Assembly: GCF_002000365.1 (NCBI RefSeq)
Contig: NZ_MVBK01000040.1
Span: forward strand, 34,438 to 87,045
Source of the DNA: Thioalkalivibrio denitrificans
GTDB lineage: Bacteria > Pseudomonadota > Gammaproteobacteria > Ectothiorhodospirales > Ectothiorhodospiraceae
Reading direction: 5' to 3'
DNA: 52,608 bases
The notes beneath the pieces were generated by a model. That model was not told where the DNA came from. It did not search any database and worked only from the letters and a program-made list of their open reading frames with translations. Position numbers and translations under genes: made by a program. Of this stretch, positions 9,333 through 49,104 are shown one piece after another. The stretch's first letter is position 1. Each line of letters opens with the position of its first letter.

Positions 9333-10526
9333 ATGACCGGGCTCCTATGGCTGCTTCTTCCGATAGCAGCCGCCTCGGGCTGGATCGCCGCTCGTCGCAG
9401 CGGACGAAGGATCAGCCGCACCCCCCGCGGCACGCTGTCGGAAGACTACATCAAGGGTTTGAATTTTCTGCTCAACGAGCAGTCTGACCGCGCCCTTGAG
9501 GTGTTCATCCAGATGGTGGACGTGGACGCCGACACCGTGGAGACGCACCTGATCCTCGGGAGTCTGTTCCGTCGGCGCGGCGAGGTGGATCGCGCCATCC
9601 GCATCCACCAGAATCTCATTGCACGGCCCAATCTCGAACCGGCGCAGCGCGCCAACGCCCTCATGGAACTTGGACGGGATTACATGCGGGCCGGGGTGCT
9701 GGACCGTGCCGAAGGCCTGTTCCGCGAACTGATCAATACCGGGTATCAGCGCGCCGAGGGTTATGCCCGTCTGCGCGACCTCTACGAACAGGAGAAGGAA
9801 TGGGAGAAGGCGATCTGGGCCGCGGAGCACCTGGGGGGGCACACGACGGACTCCCAGAGCGTGCGAATTGCCCACTATTGCTGCGAACTGGGTGAGCAGG
9901 CGGCTCGCAACGGCGACCCCTCCAGTGCCGCACGGCATGCCCGCCGCGCACTGGCCAATGACAGGGATTCCGTCAGGGCCAGTATCCTGCTGGGGGACCT
10001 CGCCGTGGAAGGGGGCGACGACCGCCGTGCCCTCAAGCACTATGCTCATGTGGCGGACCAGCATCCGGATTTCGCCTGCCTGGTGCTTGAGCGCGTGCGT
10101 GAGCTCCATGGCCGGCTCGGGGATGCGGCCGGGTATGAACGATTCCTCGCACAGCTGTCACGACGCGACAACTCTCTTGCCACGCTGCTGGCGCGTCTCG
10201 AGGCACTGCGCGGCCAGGGACGGCAGGCGGAACTGGACGATCTGCTGAACAAGGAACTGGTCCGGGAGCGGGTTGCGCTGCCGGTACTGCAGGTCTTTCT
10301 GCGGCACTGGTCCGGTCGGGTTGAGGATGCCGAGGCCGGCGACGTCCTCAACCGCGCGTCCCACGTGCTTGAGCGCTATCTCGAGCAACGCCCTGTCTAC
10401 CGCTGCATGAACTGTGGGTTCAGCGTGCGGACCCACCTGTGGCATTGTCCCGGCTGTCACCAGTGGAGCACGATCAAACCGCGGGAACTGCACGTTGAAA
10501 GGCCGCAAACGGCCCTGAGCCACTAG
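9333..10526 (+). CDS. lapB: LPS assembly protein LapB (YciM), TPR and rubredoxin-like
   Basis: Membrane-anchored adaptor that coordinates LPS synthesis and FtsH-dependent LpxC turnover (known for the family). The 397-residue protein has an N-terminal transmembrane helix (LLWLLLPIAAASGWIAA), a long TPR region from about residue 40 to 330, and a C-terminal rubredoxin-like zinc knuckle CMNCG...CPGC. Length and domain order match E. coli LapB. The TAG stop codon lies inside the CTAG that borders the 220-bp repeat at 10523-10742, so that element abuts or overlaps the gene end. Confidence 0.94.
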   Translation: MTGLLWLLLPIAAASGWIAARRSGRRISRTPRGTLSEDYIKGLNFLLNEQSDRALEVFIQMVDVDADTVETHLILGSLFRRRGEVDRAIRIHQNLIARPNLEPAQRANALMELGRDYMRAGVLDRAEGLFRELINTGYQRAEGYARLRDLYEQEKEWEKAIWAAEHLGGHTTDSQSVRIAHYCCELGEQAARNGDPSSAARHARRALANDRDSVRASILLGDLAVEGGDDRRALKHYAHVADQHPDFACLVLERVRELHGRLGDAAGYERFLAQLSRRDNSLATLLARLEALRGQGRQAELDDLLNKELVRERVALPVLQVFLRHWSGRVEDAEAGDVLNRASHVLERYLEQRPVYRCMNCGFSVRTHLWHCPGCHQWSTIKPRELHVERPQTALSH

Positions 10527-10742
10527 CTGTGATCTCTCAATACGTTGTTCATCCGGGGTGAGCTGCTGGCAGGCAGGACCGGTTGTAGGAGCCCAGCCCT
10601 CTGGGCGAACGCAGCACGGGTGCAACGCCGGTTCGCCCAGAGGGCTGGGCTCCTACAACAAGCATCGCAGGACATGCTTCGCTCCTTCGCGAGAGCCTCC
10701 TACGCTTTACCTGTGAACAATCTGTTGGCTTAACACAACTAG
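10523..10742 (+). mobile_element. 220-bp MITE-like element, copy 1
   Basis: Bounded by CTAG at both ends (10523-10526 and 10739-10742), with imperfect terminal inverted repeats (CTAGCTGTG at the left, CTAGTTGTG reading in from the right, both followed by TTGTTCA about 20 bp in). In the centre is a REP-like palindrome: 28-bp arms 10583-10610 and 10631-10658 around a 20-bp loop. A second copy of identical length lies inverted at 47505-47724, with about eight mismatches by eye plus a flipped loop. No transposase is encoded. A 62-codon open frame inside is not supported as a gene. Confidence 0.85.
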
Positions 10743-10770
10743 CCCGCGATCCCGGCGAAATATGCGGGCT
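10741..10770. repeat. Short AGCCCGC...GCGGGCT palindrome
   Basis: AGCCCGC at 10741-10747 pairs with GCGGGCT at 10764-10770, and the right arm reads ATATGCGGGCT. It abuts the CTAG end of the 220-bp element and resembles the ends of the repeat at 47722-47904. It lies 16 bp upstream of pyrF. Confidence 0.6.
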
Positions 10771-23553: not shown

Positions 23554-24072
23554 ATGCGGTGCCCTTTTTGCGGAGCCCCCGATACCCGGGTGATCGACTC
23601 CCGCCTCGCGGGGGAGGGTGATCAGGTGCGCCGGCGCCGTGAGTGCCTGTCCTGCTCGGAGCGTTTCACCACCTACGAAAACGCCGAGCTCAACATGCCC
23701 CGGGTGGTCAAGCGCGACGGTTCCCGGGAGCCGTTCTCCGAGGAGAAACTCAAGTCCGGCATGTTGCAGGCGCTGGAGAAGCGCGCCGTCTCCACCGACC
23801 GGGTGGAAGAGGCGGTGGCGCGCATCAAGCGAAAGCTCCTCGGGCAGGGGGAGCGCGAGGTGCCCTCCAGGCGGGTCGGCGAGTGGGTCATGGAGGAACT
23901 GCGCGGCCTGGACCAGGTGGCCTACATCCGCTTTGCCTCCGTCTATCTCAGCTTCGCCGACGTGCAGGCCTTCCGCGAGGTCATCGAACGCCTGGAAAAG
24001 GACCCCACGCCCGAGATGCGCAAGCACCAGATCCCGCTGCTGGGTGAGGAGGATGAGCATGGGCAGGGTTGA
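23554..24072 (+). CDS. nrdR: Transcriptional repressor NrdR
   Basis: ATP/dATP-sensing repressor of ribonucleotide reductase genes. The 172-residue protein has an N-terminal zinc ribbon (C3, C6, C31, C34; MRCPFCG and ECLSCSERF) and an ATP-cone domain from about residue 49 ([16 protein letters not shown]). Its length fits the family. It lies between glyA and ribD, the standard order, but palindromes separate it from both neighbours. Confidence 0.97.
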
Positions 24073-24073
24073 C

Positions 24074-24217
24074 GGGAAAGGCAATGGACAGGATTGACAG
24101 GATGTTTTCAGGATTAACAGGATATTCTTGATGAAAAATGCTTTTTAACATCCTGTAAATCCATAAAAATCCTGTTCATCCTGTCCATTGCCTTTCCTGT
24201 CAATCCTGTCCATTAAC
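24074..24217. repeat. Class B palindrome of 9-bp units (ACAGGATTG/A) between nrdR and ribD
   Basis: The left side reads GGAAAGGCAATGGACAGGAT followed by further ACAGGATTA units; the right side holds the complement (ATCCTGTTCATCCTGTCCAT, then GCCTTTCC). An additional pair of right-hand units lies outside the arm (CAATCCTGTCCATTAACC). It fills the gap up to about 10 bp before the ribD start. Confidence 0.85.
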
Positions 24218-24227
24218 CTTGCCAGAC

Positions 24228-25343
24228 ATGACCACCGAAGCAGACCACCGTTACATGGCCCGGGCGCTGGTGCTGGCGCGGCGGGGGCTGTACACCACGG
24301 ACCCGAATCCGCGGGTGGGCTGCGTCATCGTGCGCGACGGCGAGGTGGTGGGTGAGGGGTTTCACGTGCGCGCCGGGGAGCCTCATGCGGAGATCCTGGC
24401 CCTCCGGCAGGCCGGAGAGGCGGCCAGCGGGGCGACGGTCTACGTGAGCCTTGAGCCCTGCGCCCATCACGGCCGCACCCCGCCGTGTGCCGATGCCCTC
24501 GTGGCGGCCGGCGTGGGGCGCGTGGTGGCGGCCATGCGGGACCCCAATCCCCGGGTGGCCGGGGAAGGTCTGGCGCGGGTGGCCGCCGCAGGGATCGGCA
24601 CTACCTCCGGAGTTCTGGAAAACGAGGCGCGTGCCATCAATCCGGGGTTCGTCAGCCGCATGGAGCGGGGACGGCCCTACGTGCGCGTGAAGCTGGCCAT
24701 GAGCCTGGACGGGCGCACGGCCATGGCCTCGGGAGAGAGCCGGTGGATCACCGGGGAAGCGGCGCGGCGCGAAGTCCAGTTCTTGCGTGCCCGGGCCGGG
24801 GCCATCCTGACCGGATCGGGCACCGTGCTCGCCGACGACCCGCGGCTGGATGTGCGCCTCAGCGCGGAGGACTTGGGTATTGAGGGCCCGGTGCGCCAGC
24901 CCCTGCGGGTGATCCTGGACACGGCGCTGGCGTGTCCGTCCGCGGCACGACTGCTGGACACCGGTGGCTCCGTCCTGCTGCTCACCGGCAAGCAGGACAG
25001 TGCGCGTCATGCGCCGCTGCAGGCCCGGGGGGCAGAGGTGGTGACGTTGCCCTTGGCCCAAGGGCGGCTGGACCTGCGCGCGTTGATGGCGCTGCTGGCG
25101 GAGCGCGAGATCAACGAGGTGCACGTGGAGGCCGGCCCCCGGCTGTCCGGCGCCTTGATGGAGGCCGGACTGGTGGATGAACTGGTGATCTACATGGCCC
25201 CGCACCTGATGGGCAGCGCCGCCCGGGGCCTCATGGAACTCGGGCTTGAGACCATGGACGAGCGTATCGCGCTCAAGATCGAGGACATCCGCGCCGTGGG
25301 CGAGGACTGGCGCATCACCGCGCGGCCGATTGGAACACCTTGA
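24228..25343 (+). CDS. ribD: Bifunctional pyrimidine deaminase / reductase RibD
   Basis: Second and third steps of riboflavin synthesis: deamination of the pyrimidine, then reduction of its ribosyl side chain. From ATG 24228 the protein has 371 residues. The zinc-binding deaminase motifs are HAE (53-55) and PCAHHGRTPPC (C78, C87). The RibD_C reductase begins near residue 150 (RPYVRVKLAMSLDGRTAMASG). A TTG three codons upstream (24219) is an alternative start; neither has a clear Shine-Dalgarno sequence because repeat DNA precedes them. Confidence 0.96.
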   Translation: MTTEADHRYMARALVLARRGLYTTDPNPRVGCVIVRDGEVVGEGFHVRAGEPHAEILALRQAGEAASGATVYVSLEPCAHHGRTPPCADALVAAGVGRVVAAMRDPNPRVAGEGLARVAAAGIGTTSGVLENEARAINPGFVSRMERGRPYVRVKLAMSLDGRTAMASGESRWITGEAARREVQFLRARAGAILTGSGTVLADDPRLDVRLSAEDLGIEGPVRQPLRVILDTALACPSAARLLDTGGSVLLLTGKQDSARHAPLQARGAEVVTLPLAQGRLDLRALMALLAEREINEVHVEAGPRLSGALMEAGLVDELVIYMAPHLMGSAARGLMELGLETMDERIALKIEDIRAVGEDWRITARPIGTP

Positions 25344-25463
25344 ATGGACAGGATGAACAGGATTTCTCAGGATTAACAGGATCACTTTAAGTTAAAGAAT
25401 TTAATTAACATTTATTAGTAGTATCCTGTAAATCCGGAAAAATCCTGTCAATCCTGTCCATTA
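25344..25463. repeat. Class B palindrome between ribD and ribE
   Basis: It begins directly after the ribD stop codon: ATGGACAGGATGAACAGGAT and further units, then an AT-rich loop, then complementary units ending ATCCTGTCCATTA. It is the same family as 24074-24217 and 26154-26257 but with a different loop, so these are separately diverged copies. Confidence 0.85.
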
Positions 25464-25489
25464 AGCTCTTAACAGAGAGAACCAGAGCC

Positions 25490-26152
25490 ATGTTCACAGG
25501 CATCATCCAGGCCGTCGGCGAGATCGCCGCCATCGAACCCAGGGGTGGAGACTCCCGCCTTCGGGTGCGCACGGGCAAGCTGGATCTCTCCGACGTGCGT
25601 CTCGGCGACAGCATCGCCGTCAACGGCGTGTGCCTCACGGCGGTGGACCTGCCGGGTGACGGATTTGCGGCGGACGTGTCGGGGGAGACGCTCTCGCTCA
25701 CCACACTCGGTGCCTTGAAGTCCGGTGATCCGGTGAACCTGGAAAAGGCCCTGATGCCCACCACGCGTCTCGGCGGACACCTGGTCAGCGGCCACGTGGA
25801 CGGCGTGGGGGAGGTGCTGGCAATGCGCGACGACGGGCGCTCGGTGCGCTACGATATGCGCGCCCCGGAGGGGCTTGCCCGCTACATCGCACCCAAGGGT
25901 TCCATTTGCGTGGACGGCGTGAGTCTCACGGTAAACAGCGTGGACGGTGCGGTGTTCTCTGTGAACATTGTGCCCCACACCCGGCAGGAGACCACCTTCA
26001 GCACCTACCGGGTGGGCACCCGGATCAATCTCGAGGTGGACCTGATCGCCCGCTACCTGGAACGGCTGCTGCTCGGGGACAGGGCGGCCCAACCCGGCTC
26101 GCGCCTGACAGAGGCCTTCCTGGCGGAGCACGGGTTTCTCGGGAAGGCATAA
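25490..26152 (+). CDS. ribE: Riboflavin synthase, alpha subunit
   Basis: Dismutates two 6,7-dimethyl-8-ribityllumazine molecules into riboflavin. The 220-residue protein starts with the canonical MFTGIIQAVGEI and has two lumazine-binding repeats (about residues 1-96 and 97-200), each with an SxxxxGVCLT-like motif (GDSIAVNGVCLTAV, GSICVDGVSLTVNSV) and LGGHLVSGHVDGVG at the junction. An AGAGAGAACCAGAG stretch precedes the ATG. Confidence 0.96.
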   Translation: MFTGIIQAVGEIAAIEPRGGDSRLRVRTGKLDLSDVRLGDSIAVNGVCLTAVDLPGDGFAADVSGETLSLTTLGALKSGDPVNLEKALMPTTRLGGHLVSGHVDGVGEVLAMRDDGRSVRYDMRAPEGLARYIAPKGSICVDGVSLTVNSVDGAVFSVNIVPHTRQETTFSTYRVGTRINLEVDLIARYLERLLLGDRAAQPGSRLTEAFLAEHGFLGKA

Positions 26153-26153
26153 A

Positions 26154-26257
26154 ATGGACAGGATTGACAGGATGTTTCAGGATTAACAGGATTTTATGGT
26201 TTAAAAACAATTCTTAATATCCTGTTAATCCTGGAAAATCCTGTTCATCCTGTCCAT
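26154..26257. repeat. Class B palindrome between ribE and ribBA
   Basis: ATGGACAGGATTGACAGGAT and following units start 1 bp after the ribE stop and are mirrored by units ending ATCCTGTCCAT at 26257, around an AT-rich loop. It is the third class B copy in about 2.2 kb. Confidence 0.85.
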
Positions 26258-26293
26258 TGCTTTTCACGTATTCACCATGATCACAGCACCCGG

Positions 26294-39869: not shown

Positions 39870-39995
39870 ATCATGTCAAGAAAACTTCCCGATCCCACGG
39901 TTCGTAGGCCCGATAAGGCATAGCCGCATCCGGCACCGGGCTTACTGGTAGATGCCTTGGGGGTGCGGCTTATTCCTGGATCCCGTGGGATTGTC

Positions 39996-40228
39996 TAGCC
40001 ACAGAGGTCACAGAGGTCACAGAGAAGAAAAAGACACGCGGACCTGTAGGTCGGGCTTTAGCCCGACAGAGCGGTGTCCGACAGAGCCCCTGCGTCGGGC
40101 TGAACGAATCGCCGGGAGCGATTCGTCGCGTGAGCCCCCTTGGGGTGAGGCGCAGGGAGGCGCCGAACAAGCCCGATCTGCAGGTCCGAAAGTTTTTTTC
40201 TCTGTGACCTCTGTGTCCTCTGTGGCTA
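39996..40228. repeat. Class A palindrome enclosing a REP-like palindrome, between modE and dacB
   Basis: The outer arms (TAGCCACAGAGGTCACAGAG from 39996; complement ending 40228) consist of 9-bp CACAGAGGT units. Inside, a second pair of 20-bp arms lies at 40039-40058 and 40169-40188 (CGGACCTGTAGGTCGGGCTT and its near-complement). That pair contains the perfect hairpin GTCGGGCTTTAGCCCGAC at 40050-40067. This explains most of the 450-bp gap 39824-40273. Apart from the ModE site, 39870-39995 shows nothing recognisable. Confidence 0.85.
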
Positions 40229-40273
40229 AATAGCCTTGAACCACCCCAAGCATTGCTACACGAACCACCGTCC

Positions 40274-41695: not shown

Positions 41696-41717
41696 TCAAA
41701 GCCAAGAGCTGGTTCTT

Positions 41718-41812
41718 GCCACAGAGGTCACAGAGGGCACAGAGAAAATTCAGAAAAAGAAGCAACCGAGTTTGTTTGTCTTTCCCTCTGTGACCTCTGT
41801 GCCCTCTGTGGC
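41718..41812. repeat. Class A palindrome between convergent dacB and btuD-like genes
   Basis: The left arm GCCACAGAGGTCACAGAGGG (from 41718) and the right arm ending CCCTCTGTGGC at 41812 are built from the same two 9-bp units, but their order is swapped between arms. Pairing is therefore near-perfect, not exact. It fills the gap between two converging genes and could terminate both. Confidence 0.85.
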
Positions 41813-41821
41813 TAAACGCCC

Positions 41822-42595
<774 letters not shown>

Positions 42596-46577: not shown

Positions 46578-46643
46578 GTGCCCTTTGGGGATGGCTGATG
46601 AGGTGCCCGAGCCGGTGGAGCGGGACGCACCGATTGAGGATCA

Positions 46644-46718
46644 GCCACAGAGGTCACAGAGGCCACAGAGAGTACTTTCACTTTTGACCTTCTCTGTGAC
46701 CTCTGTGACCTCTGTGGC
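46644..46718. repeat. Class A palindrome downstream of the tRNA terminator
   Basis: GCCACAGAGGTCACAGAGGC (from 46644) is mirrored by TCTCTGTGACCTCTGTGACC and further units ending TGTGGC at 46718, around a loop of about 19 bp. In the 387-bp gap 46515-46901 only the terminator and this palindrome are recognisable; 46719-46901 shows nothing except the AGGAGG ribosome site at 46883. Confidence 0.85.
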
Positions 46719-46901
46719 AAGACATATCTCTATCCGGCTGGTCAGCCTGAGTCCGGTGTGCCGGATGCGGCCGCGCCTTATCCGACCTGCGACCCGGTCA
46801 AATATCCGGGCTGACGCGGGCATGGTATGGTGGCTTCCGGTTCGATGAAGCAGGTTCGGGATCAGCCCATTCGGCGTTGGACAGGAGGGATGGACAGCCA
46901 C

Positions 46902-47504: not shown

Positions 47505-47724
47505 CTAGCTGTGTTACCCCAACAGGTTGTTCACAGGTAAAGCGTAGGAGGCTCTCGGGAAGGAGCGAAGCATGTCCTGCGATGCTTGTTGTAGGAGCCC
47601 AGCCCTCTGGGCGAACGCAGCACGGGTACAACGCCGGTTCGCCCAGAGGGCTGGGCTCCTACAACCGGCCCTGCCTGCCAGCAGCTCACCCCGGATGAAC
47701 AACGTATCGAGAGATCACAGCTAG
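47505..47724 (-). mobile_element. 220-bp MITE-like element, copy 2 (inverted, loop flipped)
   Basis: Bounded by CTAG at 47505-47508 and 47721-47724. Read on the minus strand it matches the element at 10523-10742 over its full 220 bp with about eight mismatches by eye. The exception is the 20-bp loop (47617-47636) between the palindrome arms 47589-47616 and 47637-47664. On the plus strand this loop is in the same orientation as in copy 1, so it is inverted relative to the flanks. No transposase gene is present. Confidence 0.85.
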
Positions 47725-47904
47725 CCCGCATATCTCACCACCCTTCTACTGCGGTCGCCGATGCGCTCGCTATGACGGGGCGTGCTCCCTTCGGTCGGCT
47801 TGACGTAGTGACGGCTACGCCTGCGCCGTCCTCCGGTCCGCGCGCCCCGTCACAGCGGCGCCTCAACGCCCTCGCCACGAACGGTGGTGAGATATGCGGG
47901 CTGG
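47722..47904. repeat. 183-bp palindromic element with AGCCCGCATATCTCACC ends
   Basis: AGCCCGCATATCTCACCA (from 47722) and TGGTGAGATATGCGGGCT (ending 47904) are perfect inverted repeats of 18 bp. Inner parts also mirror weakly (TGACGGGGCG near 47776 and CGCCCCGTCA near 47842). It has no plausible coding frame. It shares the CTAG junction with the 220-bp element. Together the two explain the 420-bp gap 47490-47909. Confidence 0.8.
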
Positions 47905-47909
47905 GCCGA

Positions 47910-48838: not shown

Positions 48839-49104
48839 AGTGTACCCCGCCACTCATTTTGCAACATTCAGAGTGTGACTGAGTCGACAGTGCAAGGCGC
48901 AATCCGCAGTGAATGGCAAGCCCTTTACAAGGATTGGAACGCAGCAATGTCGACTCAGACACGCTCCCGAAGGGCGAGCCGGAAAGCGCTCATCTGCGGC
49001 GTTATGTCTCTTGGCAAGGACGCTGCCATTGCCTGCGAGCCATGCCTTGCAGCTAAGCGCTTTCCGACTCGCTGAATGTTACAAAATGAGTGGCGGGGTA
49101 CACT
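48839..49104. mobile_element. 266-bp non-autonomous element with 33-bp terminal inverted repeats
   Basis: AGTGTACCCCGCCACTCATT (from 48839, 33 bp long) is mirrored at 49072-49104 with one mismatch. An inner inverted repeat, GAGTCGAC near 48890 and GTCGACTC near 48949, is also visible. No coding frame of note and no clear target duplication are seen. It fills nearly all of the 348-bp divergent gap 48795-49142 and could carry promoters for both neighbours. Confidence 0.8.

Follow-up and report, generated by a model that had tools for sequence, protein, structure and literature searches.

A 220-bp element at positions 47505-47724 of the window (the whole stretch of Thioalkalivibrio denitrificans DNA that was analyzed, 52,608 nt) carries the loop of its central hairpin inverted with respect to its own flanks. 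Loop orientation is variable in the element family, and this copy holds the minority form. We favor, at a probability of roughly 0.6, an explanation by template switching between the REP arms of the hairpin during replication. DNA polymerase switching between the arms would first have made the two identical, and inversion of the loop would have followed in a minority of copies, the one at 47589 among them. A known and ordinary type of mutation, acting on a conveniently placed hairpin, is the most likely mechanism.

Two copies of the element are found in the window, at 10523-10742 and 47505-47724, in opposite orientation. Loop orientation was read from the left flank to the right flank, with form A being CGGCGTTG..GTGCTGC and form B being GCAGCACGGGTACAACGCCG. 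The features of the two copies are as follows.

47505-47724, plus strand: IS481-type miniature element with flipped (B) loop; CTAG at 47505-47508 and 47721-47724; both ends shared with the autonomous IS481 element of G001, a sister species
47509-47533, plus strand: left end CTGTGTTACCCCAACAGGTTGTTCA, counterpart of the IRR in the IS481-family element
47588-47616, plus strand: left REP arm GTTGTAGGAGCCCAGCCCTCTGGGCGAAC, 29 nt
47617-47636, plus strand: 20-nt loop, form B, inverted relative to the element flanks
47637-47665, minus strand: right REP arm, 29 nt, 100% complementary to the left arm
47697-47720, plus strand: right end GAACAACGTATCGAGAGATCACAG, counterpart of the IRL in the IS481-family element
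10523-10742, minus strand: IS481-type miniature element with majority (A) loop, between the lapB-like and pyrF genes; CTAG at 10523-10526 and 10739-10742
10582-10610, plus strand: REP arm of this second copy
10611-10630, minus strand: 20-nt loop of the second copy, form A relative to its own flanks
10631-10659, minus strand: REP arm of the second copy

The flanks of the two copies align with each other solely as inverted repeats (122 nt at 93% and 88 nt at 98%), while their 78-nt hairpins match directly at 99%, with one base different. This bears out the initial annotation, which had described opposite-facing copies whose loops run the same way on the plus strand; its loop length of 20 nt also holds, but the arms given there as 28 bp are 29 nt long. 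The loop motif GCAGCACGGGT occurs in the window at 10611 and 47617 only, both times on the plus strand, with 0.10 occurrences expected by chance. Folded as single-stranded DNA, the hairpin of the 47505-47724 copy reaches -40.8 kcal/mol (z -13, that is, 13 standard deviations below shuffles). A palindromic repeat with the ends TAGCCCGCATATCTCACC and GGTGAGATATGCGGGCTA, which themselves contain CTAG, abuts the element at both window loci (47721-47905 and 10739-10769) and also lies beside several other copies (L002, L005, L015, L019).

Two different IS481-like ends and the CTAG target identify the 220-bp element as a non-autonomous miniature transposon of the IS481 type. CTAG is the target of IS481, and it is found at both ends of both window copies and of several others, for example L004 and L008, having been lost in some copies. 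The transposase of an autonomous element in sister species G001 (L118) matches the IS481-family model NF033577 far above the cut-off (E 2e-92), and the ends of that element next to CTAG, TGTGATCTCTCAATAGGTTGTTCA and TGTGTAACCCCAACAGGTTGTTCA, are both present in the miniature element. Thus ends and target are common to the miniature element and to IS481-family insertion sequences, the former differing in its length of 220 bp and its lack of a transposase. A close IS481 transposase was not found in the draft genome of the window (G000), where matches were weak and below the cut-off; such a transposase in the same genome would be needed for current mobility, not for descent. Insertion can be followed at one of the two window loci. 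The gap between the lapB-like gene and pyrF is about 15-20 bp in four relatives (G001-G004) versus 260 bp in G000, where it is taken up by the miniature element together with an additional short palindrome, so that the empty site of the 10523-10742 copy is present in 4/4 relatives. At the 47505 locus the relatives carry a different sequence downstream of the VKOR gene. The CTAG at 10523-10526 supplies the lapB-like gene with its TAG stop codon; in the relatives the stop is TGA, followed by the short stretch to pyrF. An IS481-type DDE element does not require a hairpin, and with ends of this type the earlier proposal that the loop flipped through processing of the hairpin during transposition is not supported.

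The central hairpin is a GTAG-type REP doublet (REPIN), consisting of two inverted REPs with a GTAG head, a short spacer and a hairpin fold. Eight matches to Y1_Tnp-like transposases are present in G000, one of which, partial, lies beside REPs of the same type. GTAG-type REP doublets have been described for many bacteria, Thioalkalivibrio among them, and share with the present hairpin the GTAG head, the two inverted REPs, the short spacer, the fold and the genomic Y1 transposases (PMC3116915, PMC3733652). REP dimers within other repeats are also on record for known REPINs, but unlike these the REPIN here rides in an IS481-type miniature element (PMC3116915, PMC3733652). As far as we searched, a REPIN carried by such an element constitutes an undescribed family. 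The word inversion is absent from both REPIN papers (PMC3116915, PMC3733652), and the literature search returned no report of REPIN loop inversion or of bacterial microinversions, which is weak evidence given the collection covered. Because each REPIN copy has unique flanks, REPIN orientation is normally unreadable. Placement of a REPIN in a miniature transposon provides fixed flanks, making arm homogenisation and loop inversion countable across copies, and the element family would thus provide a natural assay of template switching at hairpins on a bacterial chromosome.

The draft genome (3.64 Mb, 167 contigs) holds about 30 full or partial copies of the element. The initial annotation had asked whether the loop is fixed relative to the flanks in other copies, and tabulation shows that it is not: among the 15 readable loops 12 are A (L002, L004, L005, L006, L007, which is window 10582, L008, L009, L010, L012, L013, L018 and L024) and three are B (L001, which is window 47589, L003 on contig C11 and L011 at the start of contig C4). 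These 15 include three copies with one flank only (L011, L013, L024), one that retains little of its left flank (L012) and one broken by Ns (L018). L006, L012, L013 and L018 form a subfamily recognizable by a 4-bp duplication, GAAC, where arm and loop meet. Of the pair L010 (contig C73) and L020 (contig C140), one has its right half swapped for another palindrome (CCATAGGGCGGCCCGTGG...) and one is broken inside the REP by unrelated DNA.

An older pair in the same genome, L107 and L108, has loops inverted relative to an IS481 right-end remnant; with one loop reversed, most of the 20 bases match, a result equaled in 0 of 20,000 shuffles. The flanks of this pair are far more diverged, making it weaker evidence for flipping.

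Perfect arms could let an assembler close the loop the wrong way in a draft of this kind, and such an assembly or gap-filling error at 47589 has to be considered. The hairpins of L014, L015 and L018 contain Ns or coincide with contig ends, indicating that the assembler struggled at exactly these sites. However, arbitrary closure would be unlikely to yield 12 A and 2 B copies (L003 left aside; one-sided binomial approximately 0.006), L003 is of form B despite having imperfect and distinguishable arms, and the window is free of Ns at the 47505-47724 copy. An artifact is therefore an unlikely source of the flipped loop.

The arrangement of a REPIN with IS481-type ends is also found in G001 and G002, where the REP arms are mostly unlike, with CCCAG..CTGGG on one side versus CCCGG..CCGGG on the other. 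In every unlike-armed REPIN listed for these two genomes the loop keeps a single orientation with respect to the arms; among the copies that could be read with the right flank, 7/7 have one orientation relative to that flank. The REPIN arms of more distant family members differ. The two arms of nearly every G000 copy are identical, and both loop orientations occur there. Taking G001 and G002 as outgroups on the strength of the shared genus, the arms appear to have been homogenised in G000. Alignment of the loops to those of G002 points to A as the ancestral form, a result that is not significant; the majority in G000 and the arm order in G002 suggest a change from A to B.

The L003 copy, with its unlike arms, departs from this pattern. 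It has the order Q-arm, B loop, P-like arm, which mirrors the order P, A, Q seen in the sister species, as if arms and loop had been inverted together, and its outermost base pair is altered on both sides (ATT..AAT versus GTT..AAC). Inversion of a whole REPIN is what would be expected if a REP-associated Y1 transposase (RAYT) cut the REPIN out in the form of a single-stranded hairpin, to be put back in either direction. REPIN excision has been proposed (PMC3116915), and the eight Y1-like matches, including the one beside REPs of the same type, would offer candidate enzymes. Nevertheless, the position of the junction is the same in A and B copies, no copy lacking the REPIN at that junction was found among the elements (L027 being an internal deletion), and no flips are seen in the sister species with the same arrangement, so we regard RAYT-driven flipping as very improbable. 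Scarcely more probable is a version in which RAYT transposases nick and rejoin REP doublets as hairpins and cause in-place flips at an appreciable rate, the loop orientation then recording RAYT action. Were it true, that activity would be naturally recorded in elements that carry a REPIN between fixed flanks.

Template switching between the arms would account for both the homogenised arms and the turned loop. During replication the nascent strand would switch to the opposite strand inside one arm, the loop would be copied off that strand, and a switch back would take place in the other arm. The spacer of the 47505-47724 copy is exactly inverted between unchanged arms, as template-switch spacer inversion leaves it. 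Arm homogenisation together with spacer inversion is the signature of template switching between inverted-repeat arms, the inversion being ascribed to an intermolecular switch and occurring mostly on arms that are already perfect (PMC8604942). The identical arms and flipping loop of G000 fit that last observation, and the mirrored arms and loop of L003 likewise speak for template switching. Perfect arms, an inverted spacer and arm homogenisation are shared with the yeast genes in which this was described, where spacer inversion is recurrent and reversible; spacers there are 2-5 nt and arms 10-16 bp, versus 20 nt and 29 bp here, and the present repeat is a bacterial intergenic mobile element (PMC8604942). 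Nearly the same geometry is found in the minute inversions of chloroplast hairpins such as trnH-psbA, with a 25-27 bp loop and arms of at least 18 bp (PMC2903610). Both loop orientations occur within species in these hairpins (PMC2903610; Kelchner and Wendel 1996, cited there). The chloroplast case concerns a single organelle locus, whereas here the hairpin belongs to a dispersed mobile repeat. The process of loop inversion is thus already known from chloroplasts and yeast. Where it is ignored, short repeats may be misaligned.

The same outcome could be reached by ectopic gene conversion, in which the core of one copy is overwritten by that of an opposite-facing copy; since palindromic arms allow pairing either way, the loop would end up turned. 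A suitable donor exists for the 47589 copy, as L009 lies 5.2 kb downstream on the same contig in opposite element orientation. On the same strand the cores of L001 and L009 are direct repeats with one base different, and the L009 loop is the exact reverse complement of B. The loop at 47589 scores 24/24 against the reverse complement of that of L009 and -1 against its own reverse complement, and has no appreciable self-symmetry. The L001 core is explained equally well by conversion from L009 as by template switching. Additionally, the 20-nt loops of L009, L001, L003 and L011 are identical despite diverged flanks, those of L001, L003 and L009 differing at 8-15 of 126 positions. However, both ends of a conversion tract would have to fall inside arms of about 29 bp, the arms of L003 are unlike those of any other copy in the family and leave it with no visible donor, and identical short loops are possible by chance at this divergence. 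We therefore regard conversion as a less likely source of the B form.

The number of events can be approached through the flanks. In a flank-only tree (126 columns) L001 and L003 are not sisters, implying two changes (AU test p = 0.016), which suggests more than one origin of the B form or its transfer between copies. The flanks of L001 lie near the center of the star-like tree, and the identical loops in all three B copies also fit one flip followed by spread. In the initial annotation the flipped loop had been taken as direct evidence of recombination between the palindrome arms or of strand switching at the hairpin. Either remains the best explanation, because the loop is not turned the same way in every copy and this variation comes with homogenised arms, but orientation alone is no direct proof of a flip in place, since conversion from an opposite-facing copy looks the same.

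A functional role for the loop as an invertible segment, also raised earlier, has hardly any probability. Two orientations do exist, as they would if a recombinase turned the segment in a programmed manner, but the loop is a mere 20 nt, the element is intergenic, no promoter, gene or recombinase could be tied to the loop, and the copies lie at unrelated loci.

Several other repeats were noted in the window. Clusters of CAGGATTAACAGGAT-type repeats form inverted pairs between genes at 24059-24219, 25332-25467 and 26142-26263, and CCACAGAGGTCACAGAG-type repeats, likewise in inverted pairs, are located at 1-45, 39992-40237, 41705-41823 and 46640-46731. Near the start of the VKOR gene, inverted arms of 38 bp (48839-48876 and 49067-49104) are 92% complementary and lie 190 nt apart.
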